Shown here: positions 7,840 through 11,240 of the stretch, one piece after another
Numbering within the stretch: position 1 is the stretch's first letter
How the letters are laid out: each line of letters begins with the position of its first letter
Assembly: GCF_032391395.1 (NCBI RefSeq)
Contig: NZ_CP135916.1
Span: forward strand, 2,108,001-2,172,000
Length of the DNA stretch: 64,000 nt
Source of the DNA: Sphingomonas sp. Y38-1Y
GTDB lineage: Bacteria; Pseudomonadota; Alphaproteobacteria; Sphingomonadales; Sphingomonadaceae
Reading direction: 5' to 3'
Notes under the pieces: model-generated
The model's input: the letters and a program-made list of their open reading frames with translations, nothing else
Database searches by the model: none
Told to the model about the DNA's origin: nothing
Position numbers and translations under genes: made by a program

Positions 7840-8742
7840 TTGCTCAACACCAGCGCGCCCATGAGCTTTCAGCGCATGATCCTGACGCTCCACGACTATT
7901 GGGCGGCGCGGGGGTGCGTGATCCTCCAACCCTATGACATGGAGATGGGGGCGGGTACCTTTCACCCCGCGACGACGCTGCGCGCGCTGGGACCGGAGCC
8001 GTGGAACGCCGCCTTCGTCCAGCCGTGCCGCCGCCCGACCGACGGCCGCTATGGCGAGAACCCCAACCGGCTCCAGCATTATTACCAGTACCAGGTGATC
8101 CTGAAGCCGAGCCCGTCCGACCTTCAGGAGCTGTATCTCGGCAGCCTGGCGGCGATCGGCATCGACTTTGCCGCGCACGACATCCGCTTCGTCGAGGACG
8201 ATTGGGAAAGCCCGACCTTGGGCGCCTGGGGCCTAGGCTGGGAAGTGTGGTGCGACGGGATGGAGGTGACGCAGTTCACCTATTTCCAGCAGATGGGCGG
8301 CTTCGACTGCAAGCCGGTAGCGGGCGAGCTCACCTACGGGCTCGAACGGCTGGCGATGTACATCCAGAACGTCGACAGCGTGTACGACCTGGCCTTCAAC
8401 GACGCGGGCGTCAGCTATGGCGACGTGTTCCTGGAGAATGAGCGCCAGATGTCGACCTGGAACTTCGAGGTCGCCGATACCGAGCGGCTGTTCGACGGGT
8501 TCCGGAAGGCGGTGGCCGAGTGCGAGAACTCGCTGGCCGCGGGTCTGCCCATCGCCGCCTATGAGCAGGCGATCAAGGCGAGCCACCAATTCAACCTGCT
8601 TCAGGCCCGCGGCGTCATCTCCGTCGCCGAGCGCCAAGCCTATATCGGCCGCGTCCGTGACCTCGCGAAGGGCGCGTGCAAGGCGCAGATCGACAAGATG
8701 ACCCCCGATTGGGAAGCGCGTTTTCCGGAGTGGAGCCTGTGA
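7840..8742 (+). CDS. glyQ: Glycine--tRNA ligase alpha subunit
   Basis: Catalytic subunit of the bacterial alpha2beta2 glycyl-tRNA synthetase, charging tRNA-Gly with glycine. It contains the family blocks [33 protein letters not shown] and [14 protein letters not shown]. The start is placed at TTG 7840 because GGAAGG lies exactly 6 bases upstream and the protein then has the usual short leader before SFQ; an ATG at 7861 is the alternative. The stop overlaps the GTG start of glyS (GTGA), so the two subunits are translationally coupled. Confidence 0.95.
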
Positions 8743-11240
8743 CCGACTTCCTCCTCGAACTCCGTTCCGAAGAGATCCCGGCGCGGATGCAGGATCGCGC
8801 GCGGGCCGATCTGGAGAAGCTGTTCGTCGCCGAACTGGCCAAGGCAGGCGTCGCGGCGGGCGCGATCGTCACCTATGCGACGCCGCGCCGCCTGGCGCTG
8901 ATCGCGCGCGACTTGCCCGAAGCGACCGAAGGCTCGCGCGAAGAAGTGAAGGGGCCGCGCACTTCGGCGCCGGAGCAGGCGCTGGAGGGCTTCCTGCGCA
9001 AGACCGGGCTGTCGAAGGAACAGCTGACCGAACGCGACGGCGTGTGGTTCGCCGTCACCGAAAAGCCGGGCCGCGCCACCGCGGAGGTGCTCGCCGCCGC
9101 GATCCCCGCGATCGTCCGCGCCTTTCCCTGGCCCAAATCGATGCGCTGGGGCGATGCCTCGCTGTCGAGCGAGAGCCTGCGCTGGGTCCGGCCGCTGCAG
9201 GGCATCGTCGCGATCTTCGGAGAGGCGCTCGTCCCTTGTGCGATCGCCGGGGTCGAAAGCGGCTATGCGACGGTGGGTCACCGCTTCCACAGCCCGCATG
9301 GCCTCACCATCGGCGGCGCGCATGATTATGCCGAGAAGCTGCGGCTCGCGCATGTCATCGTCGATCAGGACGAGCGCCGCGCGATCATCCGTGACCGCGC
9401 GACCGCGCTGGCGAGCGCGGCGGGGCTGACGCTGATCGAGGACGAGGGGCTGGTCGCCGAGAATGGCGGCCTCACCGAGTGGCCGGTGCCGCTGCTCGGC
9501 CGCTTCGACGAGGCGTTCCTGGACGTGCCGCCCGAGGTCATTCAGCTGACCGCGCGCGTGAACCAGAAATACTTCGTCTGTGCGCGGGCGGATGGCGGCT
9601 TGGCCAACGCCTTCGTCTGTGTCGCCAACATCGATGCGCGCGACGGCGGCGAGCGGATCGTCGCGGGCAACCAGAAGGTGCTCGCCGCACGGCTTTCCGA
9701 CGCGCGCTTCTTTTACGAGACGGACCTCAAGGTACCGCTCGAGGAGCAGGCGAAGAAACTCGAGAAGATCGTCTTCCACGAAAAGCTCGGCACCGTAGCC
9801 GACAAGGTCGAGCGCGTGGCGAAGCTGGCGCGGTGGCTGGTCGAGGAGGGGATCGTAAAGCCTGCACCCCTCCCGCTTGCGGGAGGGGTCGGGGGTGGGC
9901 CTGACCAGGCGTCGTCACCCGCGGACAGGCCCACCCCTAGCCCCTCCCGCGAGCGGGAGGGGGATCTGGCCGACATGGCCGAACGCGCCGCGCGCCTCGC
10001 CAAGGCCGACCTCGTCACCGGCATGGTCGGCGAGTTCCCCGAATTGCAGGGCCTGATGGGCGGCTATTACGCCAAGGCGCAGGGCGAGCCGCGCGAGGTC
10101 TGGGAAGCGGTCCGCGACCACTACAAGCCGGTCGGGCAGGGCGACGACGTGCCCACCGCGCCGGTGACGGTGGCGGTGTCGCTGGCGGATAAGTTGGATA
10201 CGCTTATTTCGTTCTTCTTCGAGGAGCTTCTGCCCACCGGTTCAAAGGACCCATTTGCGCTCAGACGGGCAGCTCTTGGTGTCTTGCAAGTCATCGAAAC
10301 AAGCGATCTCCGTTTGGGGCTGGCGACGATTGCTGCCGAGGCTGCCTTGCCCCTGGCGGCCCGAAGCTTTCCTGTTGAAAGCGGAATCGCGGATGATCTG
10401 TTGCGTCGTTCGTCGAAACTGCTCCCGAAGGCACTTCTAACTAGCCCGGAAATCGCTGCGAAAGACGAGATACGCGCTGTTCAATCGGCTGTGCTCGAAA
10501 TGCTGCAAGGAAGCGTGCGAACATCTCGGCTGCTGCTCGACTTCTTCGCCGACCGCCTCAAGGTTCAGCAGCGCGAAGCCGGCGTTCGCCACGACCTGAT
10601 CGACGCGGTGTTCGCGCTGGGTGGGGAGGACGATCTCGTCCGCTTGCTTGCGCGCGTGCACTCGCTTCAGGCGTTCGTGGCGACGGGTGAGGGGGCCAAC
10701 CTGCTCGCCGCGTACAAGCGCGCGGCGAACATCCTCAAGAAGGAGGGGTGGAGCGACACCGCTGCCCCCGCCGCGACGCCGACGCTGGCCGACATGGCCG
10801 AGCAGTCGAAGCCGTTCGGCGACGAGCCGCAGCGCCTGCCCGAGGAGCGCCGCGTGATCGAGGCCGATCTGGCGGGCGGTCGCATCCCTGAGACCGGCGA
10901 GGAGGACCCGCTTGCCGAGGGCGCGGGTCAGGACAACGCAGGCATGACCGCCGGCGAGGGCAGCGGCGACGCTCGCGCGACCGCGCACGAGCCCGCCGAA
11001 GCCGCGCTGATCGCCGCGCTCGATGCCGCGGAGCCGCGCGCCGCCGCAGCGGTCGAAGCCGAGGATTTCGAGGGCGCGATGGCGGCGCTCGCGTCGCTGC
11101 GCGCGCCGATCGATGCCTTTTTCGACCAGGTGACCGTCAACGACGCCGATCCCGCCAAGCGCGAGGCGCGGCTGCGGCTACTCGCGCGGATGCGGGCGGC
11201 GGTTCATCGCGTGGCGGATTTCTCGCGAATCGAGGGCTAG
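8739..11240 (+). CDS. glyS: Glycine--tRNA ligase beta subunit with in-frame repeat insertion
   Basis: Large subunit of glycyl-tRNA synthetase (tRNA recognition and anticodon binding). It opens with [16 protein letters not shown], typical of GlyS, at a GTG that overlaps the glyQ stop. At 833 residues it is much longer than the 689 of E. coli. One reason is an in-frame palindromic repeat at 9866-9962, read as a Pro/Gly/Arg/Ser-rich stretch between VEEGIVKPA and [15 protein letters not shown] second is a low-complexity acidic stretch (roughly codons 690-755) before the C-terminal domain. From about 10180 to 10550 the codons (CTT, TTG, GGT, TCA, AGA, CAA, ATT) differ sharply from the rest of the gene. 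The reading frame stays intact. Confidence 0.95.
9866..9962. repeat. Palindromic repeat element inserted inside glyS
   Basis: A nested palindrome. The left hairpin has arms CCCCTCCCGC (9867) and GCGGGAGGGG (9879). The right hairpin has the same arms at 9941-9962. Between them a GGGGTGGGCCTG / CAGGCCCACCCC pair (9892 and 9927) brings the two hairpins together. The hairpin style resembles the intergenic repeat at 20950-21073. It is read through in frame within glyS. Confidence 0.85.

Follow-up and report, generated by a model that had tools for sequence, protein, structure and literature searches.

In-frame palindromic repeats in sphingomonad glycyl-tRNA synthetase: a dispersed element at a loop where repeat families alternate

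How does a palindromic DNA repeat come to lie in frame within an essential gene, and what becomes of it there? GlyS, ValS and IleRS are essential enzymes, and the glyS gene of Sphingomonas sp. Y38-1Y contains such a repeat. We analyzed it within a window of 64,000 nt (contig NZ_CP135916.1, positions 2,108,001 to 2,172,000) and in related genomes. The explanation we favor, with a probability of roughly 80%, is that a REP/MITE-like mobile palindrome, dispersed through the genome, lies in frame in a GlyS loop where it is translated and tolerated, where repeat families turn over, and to which it was brought by a mover that is probably not a resident RAYT.

A nested palindrome within the glyS reading frame

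The gene for the glycyl-tRNA synthetase beta subunit (glyS, 8739..11240, + strand) belongs to an open reading frame listed from 8676, within which we read the start as a GTG at 8739 overlapping the glyQ stop. Pfam family PF02092 (glycyl-tRNA synthetase beta) matches residues 3-624 at E 2.2e-179 and spans the element, PF05746 is matched as well, and a structure search retrieved 7yse, 8ie2 and 7lu4. Inverted-repeat analysis, genome copies, alignment and folding delimit the nested palindrome at 9867..9962 on the same strand, to which all its parts are also assigned: two outer arms of 40 nt (9867..9906 and 9923..9962), 88% complementary, enclose a 16-nt spacer (9907..9922) that differs among copies, and each arm holds an inner hairpin with a 2-nt loop, with an 11-bp stem on the left (9866..9889, pairing 9866-9876 with 9879-9889) and a 10-bp stem on the right (9941..9962, pairing 9941-9950 with 9953-9962). 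The predicted RNA fold of 9861-9967 reaches -95.4 kcal/mol (z -9.3), and none of 200 shuffles was equally stable. The arms, the two inner hairpins and the strong fold bear out an earlier note, made from the sequence of the window, that had described a nested palindrome here. An Rfam scan gave 20 matches at E up to 1 (19 microRNA models and one sRNA), which we took as chance, all being under the gathering score.

The glyS frame is uninterrupted across the element, which encodes 32 residues. The AlphaFold model of the window's GlyS (mean pLDDT 84.8) places the insert between helices 352-368 and 403-419, with residues 381-392 scoring below 50. When GlyS was aligned to its E. coli counterpart (7yse), the aligned blocks ended at 378 and restarted at 383, with the insert in this 4-residue gap.

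Copies, empty sites and host genes

Twelve full-length places were found in the window's own genome, the glyS copy counted, together with three partial ones, the third of which (L027) matches spacer letters alone and is probably chance. With up to one mismatch allowed, the hairpin core was counted 24 times, versus once for its reversed control. Across the 12 copies the arms are near-invariant and the spacer is variable (consensus CCCCTCCCGCTTGCGGGAGGGGTCGGGGGTGGGCCT, spacer, GCCCACCCCCAGCCCCTCCCGCAAGCGGGAGGGGG), describing an element of ~92-102 bp in which two inverted units, each a 22-nt hairpin plus a G-rich arm, flank the spacer. Coding status was assessed by listing open frames across or adjoining each copy and scanning 30 of them against Pfam. 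Four of the 12 full copies lie in frame within domain-bearing genes (glyS, valS, rnr and metH), one lies upstream of a hisD domain, and the remaining seven have no domain in the scanned frames that cross them, a missing Pfam match not being proof of non-coding; eight of the 12 appear intergenic. The four coding copies share one reading register, but relatives use a second (PSRLREG...), and we gave no weight to a special register; a peptide search finds solely the register of its query.

The two relatives closest by ValS identity (92%) among the genus genomes searched, G282 and G292, have no insert in the DNA of glyS, valS or rnr, and their metH matches split around it. The alignment to close relatives that the earlier note had proposed thus revealed an empty glyS site in both, against which the window's segment measures 46 residues versus 13. 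The claim that the frame is kept stood; the size put at about 35 residues became a net gain of 33 codons. Because the 120-nt glyS windows on either side of the insert are both 91% identical to G282, recombination of the glyS 3′ half was rejected as the source of the insert. No target-site duplication was visible at the G282 and G292 empty-site junctions, where the few adjoining bases have diverged.

A separate feature of glyS emerged from the same comparison. Window positions 10284-10544 (GlyS residues 515-601) are hypervariable and lower in G+C, at about 55-60%. Identity to G282 and G292 is 41-45% in the 120-nt windows at 10241 and 10361, whereas it reaches 80-94% in the two preceding windows and 88% in the window at 10601. 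Among 284 sphingomonad GlyS pairs with both flanks more than 85% identical, the core is below 45% identical in 281 and above 70% in 3, and an all-against-all comparison of 61 cores gave five similar pairs. This segment has the look of a cassette exchanged within an essential enzyme, and is perhaps more surprising than the palindrome.

Beyond Y38-1Y, the element was matched in 254 of 295 genus genomes, its own counted; no more than three candidates were scored in each genome, and the count may take in related hairpin families. Both the 12 places in one genome and this breadth across the genus speak against the possibility, raised by the earlier note, that no other copy exists. We then took the 29 best-matching loci, one per genome, from the 253 genomes with a match, and scanned all 36 spanning frames for domains. 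Eight (L111, L112, L114, L117, L118, L122, L126 and L133) lie in frame within a domain-bearing gene, encoding a DnaE-type polymerase, IleRS (two), ValS (two), RNase R, UvrA and CarA. At L109, L121, L129, L131, L132, L134 and L135 the element precedes the first domain, and these were not counted; at the remaining 14, no frame that crosses the element bears a domain.

Protein searches widened the range of hosts. The RNase R insert peptide, compared with ~5.77 billion proteins, returned 107 at E up to 1 (227 candidates), of which 104 contain both the left and right peptide motifs (P0033 contains neither by the expressions used); in 98 the best stretch is flanked on both sides by more than 100 residues. 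Their hosts, by Pfam, comprise ~16 kinds: 48 GlyS rows, ValS and a DnaE2-type polymerase (two sites each), LigA, a CysN-like protein, CoaBC, MetH, RNase R, PutA, UvrA, Mfd, a Mur-ligase type, Uup, an RsmB-type and two more methyltransferase types. Of the 19 proteins found with a CGTC-type peptide, 17 have the GlyS domain, one is an IleRS and one is of another kind; a third-family peptide found 45 among 500 candidates, including GlyS, LigA, ValS, MetH, PheS and MurD. At the DNA level, one copy type recurs at 80-93% identity, spacer included, in glyS at a first site (L030) and a second (L239, G040), in valS (G040) and in metH (G159, G161), which is evidence of dispersal among genes. Five of 72,556 plasmid records, all from Sphingomonadales, also match the element, three of them along the greater part of it, so that its transfer among strains on a mobile replicon is conceivable.

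The second GlyS site, before the DALR domain, appears by peptide resemblance to be occupied in L030, L239, L228, L231, L232, L078 and L029; at this position the predicted model of the window's GlyS has an 80-residue low-confidence linker.

Alternation of families at the GlyS loop

The GlyS loop was compared across the best 80 of 583 loci plus 16 of 17 chosen partly for closeness or copy number. The final set holds 93 of 97 rows, after L084, L085, L087 and L089 were dropped where a contig end or N run cuts the gene. An insert is present in 50 of 74 sphingomonad rows, versus none of 19 others; with 24 sphingomonad rows empty, the segment is not a feature of all sphingomonad GlyS; its presence in every one, without the palindrome, would have told against an inserted repeat. 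All 50 inserts, each with both flanks readable, are in frame and stop-free, 48 of the filled segments measure 37-70 residues, and the interiors contain 16% Pro and 16% Gly. Among 38 segments of at least 18 residues, folded with DNA parameters and compared with mononucleotide shuffles, z fell below -3 in 28 and below -2 in 32; the other 10 fold no better than z -3. L060, L061 and L077 lie near zero, and are putative repeats by sequence resemblance alone. Two side observations concern the records themselves: the contigs of L085, L087 and L089 stop at or just past the insert, where assembly probably breaks at the repeat, and L082 (QDFQ01000001.1), titled Arthrobacter sp. TPD3018, has a GlyS of 69% identity that falls within the Sphingomonas part of the tree and is probably mislabelled.

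The filled loops hold different repeats. At least six hairpin types were distinguished by their cores, and family labels, assigned by eye, comprise four related Pro/Gly hairpin types (the window's included), CGTC-type REPs, a PERGGG...PPPRAGE type, and smaller classes with weaker or absent hairpins. On a quick LG+G4 tree of the same gene, built after removal of the insert columns and with 40 of its 89 inner branches starred, these labels require at least 43 changes, against a possible minimum of 9 and a shuffled mean of 47.8, a value as low being reached in 1 of 200 shuffles. Presence or absence requires at least 16 changes, 12 of them forced by starred branches, and the labels within the 50 filled rows alone at least 31. 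L030 and L239, with 2298 identities and 243 mismatches over the compared locus, carry different palindromes with the same boundaries, and near relatives such as L049 and L066 differ in having filled versus empty alleles. Shortened inserts also exist (L033, L038).

The loops of ValS, RNase R and MetH behave like that of GlyS. The alignments covered 30 loci for each gene, those with the highest scores in 61 genomes, a choice that biases the fractions upwards. A palindromic insert occupies 11 of 30 ValS rows (segments of 42-50 residues, versus 10-11 in the other 19), and z is -3 or lower in 21 of 30 RNase R rows and 9 of 30 MetH rows. In one of the 61 genomes, G131, the ValS palindrome (L303) is down to a single hairpin and the gene halves are in different frames, which may reflect assembly collapse between two like hairpins or a real deletion. 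Two other breaks are, as far as seen, unrelated to the insert: G009 valS breaks before an empty loop is reached, and in G219 rnr the out-of-frame stretch is longer, with both ends away from the insert site. In G182 rnr the reported stop precedes the gene's open frame, and stops were also reported in the G280 and G069 rnr and G026 metH rows.

Such alternation could arise if the sequence or structure of the DNA site made it a hot spot, each new element being drawn there into an empty glyS, with no replacement in place. The many changes of family and presence on the tree, and the filled and empty alleles of near relatives, speak for this alternative. Against it stands the right junction of the insert, where the window has Leu-Ala-Asp codons (9966..9974, + strand): in the 93-row comparison, Leu-Ala precedes the next helix in all 50 filled loops and in none of the 43 empty ones, 24 of them sphingomonad, a constancy unexpected from independent insertions. 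A constant junction would instead follow if the loop had opened once and all filled alleles descended from that opened loop, and the sequences suggest such a single opening, with palindromes replacing one another there since. Leu-Ala could also have arisen by convergence, through selection at the start of the helix, and not by shared descent.

The beginnings of some inserts bear on the same question. At L058, L082, L041 and L237 the first part of the insert is the 3′ end of elongator tRNA-Met, and a CGTC-type REP comes next; alignment scores of 20-30 compare with a shuffled maximum of 11 (52 inserts, 11 tRNA 3′ ends). A first pattern search for this tRNA-like start across 21 genomes gave no match, and a looser pattern led to tRNA-Met, displacing tmRNA as a candidate source. 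The CGTC-type inserts of L049, L082 and L237 share the spacer DGAGQEPH yet sit apart in the tree, and L033 looks by eye like a decayed tRNA-Met-type insert without its palindrome. This recurrence of the tRNA-Met remnant and shared spacer in separate filled lineages also weighs against independent attraction to an empty site, which we consider possible but doubtful. No REP was found within 130 bases after tRNA-Met at L286, L292 or L300, in genomes with such an insert.

Taken further, these patterns may mean that loops of core enzymes serve as heritable landing pads, with one ancient opening of GlyS, perhaps by insertion of a tRNA-Met 3′ end plus REP, followed by dozens of in-place swaps that left the junction as a scar. 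We would put even odds on this extended account; if it is true, the turnover of selfish palindromes from unrelated families keeps altering the primary structure of a core enzyme at one constant place.

Selection for the inserts themselves, as a useful linker, regulator or folding pause provided by a flexible loop or an mRNA hairpin, seems to us improbable. The same genes are hit repeatedly (GlyS, ValS, IleRS, DnaE2, UvrA, MetH, RNase R) and nearly all filled GlyS segments fall in one length range, but unrelated sequences occupy the same place, close relatives do without an insert, and shortened versions persist. That the element escapes translation, by RNA-level removal or by ribosome bypass like that of the mitochondrial byps of Magnusiomyces, is highly implausible: the predicted mRNA hairpin is very stable, bypassed palindromes have a precedent in the accessible part of PMC6649704, and the G131 frame falters at its ValS palindrome, but a skipped element needs no frame and every readable GlyS insert keeps one.

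A tolerated mobile palindrome thus remains our preferred explanation, and would work as follows. Insertion into glyS would have taken place where a loop joins two helices. The element would be translated as a flexible Pro/Gly/Ser/Ala-rich extension of ~33 residues, and would persist because the permissive loop tolerates it at little or no cost, while out-of-frame copies in such genes would be purged by selection. The loop would have opened long ago, with palindrome families then displacing one another and an occasional return to the empty state. Mobility would come from transposition or copying by an enzyme that is probably not a resident RAYT: a search that covered PF01797 only found no such Y1 transposase in the window's own genome, and 33 of 295 genus genomes have one while 254 match the element. 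A RAYT was therefore rejected as resident mover, though not as a past one.

Relation to known repeats

The closest parallel in behavior lies in Rickettsia, where the RPEs of Ogata (2000, 2002) are reportedly palindromes of ~100-150 bp, in frame in unrelated genes, in several families and with an unknown mobility enzyme; the 2002 title is said to present protein-coding palindromes as a Rickettsia peculiarity. The likeness drawn by the earlier note holds for behavior, as the window's element is likewise a palindrome in frame in genes of unrelated function and several families occur. In contrast to RPEs, the hosts here are free-living GC-rich sphingomonads, and a single loop is occupied by one family after another. 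RPEs are described in the accessible part of one review (PMC10969869), which considers it conceivable that a comparable process operates elsewhere.

The window's element also resembles a MITE in being short, non-autonomous, terminally inverted and dispersed. No target-site duplication was visible against G282 and G292, where the adjoining bases have diverged, and the PF01797 search of its genome gave no partner transposase. It does not fit the GTAG REPs associated with a tyrosine transposase (RAYT), lacking both the tag and, in its genome, PF01797.

E. lithoralis and S. alaskensis are sphingomonads. Intragenic REPs in the tRNA synthetases of these two species are listed in the accessible part of Di Nocera 2013 (PMC3733652), which corrects the earlier note's statement that repeats entering essential genes are rarely noticed in sphingomonads. 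The same part reports REPs and dimers of them lying within uvrA, dnaE2 and tRNA synthetase genes of several bacteria, and different REPs at about one recB site in two Xanthomonas species, with different sites in other genes of the category. The CGTC REPs described there have a CGTC tag, an 8-9 bp stem, a 4-5 nt loop and no transposase; another insert family at the GlyS site (VTPAKAG...SAGMT) fits this description, as far as the accessible text gives it, whereas the window's element, with 10-11 bp stems, 2-nt loops and no tag, does not. What could be consulted of PMC6649704 places few structures inside coding sequence, and the corresponding portion of PMC12306157 mentions neither "sphingo" nor "intragenic". 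The GlyS site appeared in no title or abstract opening found by our literature search, subscription papers being mostly beyond its reach.

Collectively, the kind of element is already known, and what is new, as far as these literature searches show, is a family that bears no tag and the exchange of one family for another at fixed loops. Earlier intragenic REPs were scattered cases, whereas sphingomonads give the process in replicate: a genus with hundreds of sequenced species offers the same loops, many families, and empty and filled alleles in near relatives, making testable the entry of selfish DNA into core proteins, its fitness cost and its replacement repeat by repeat.
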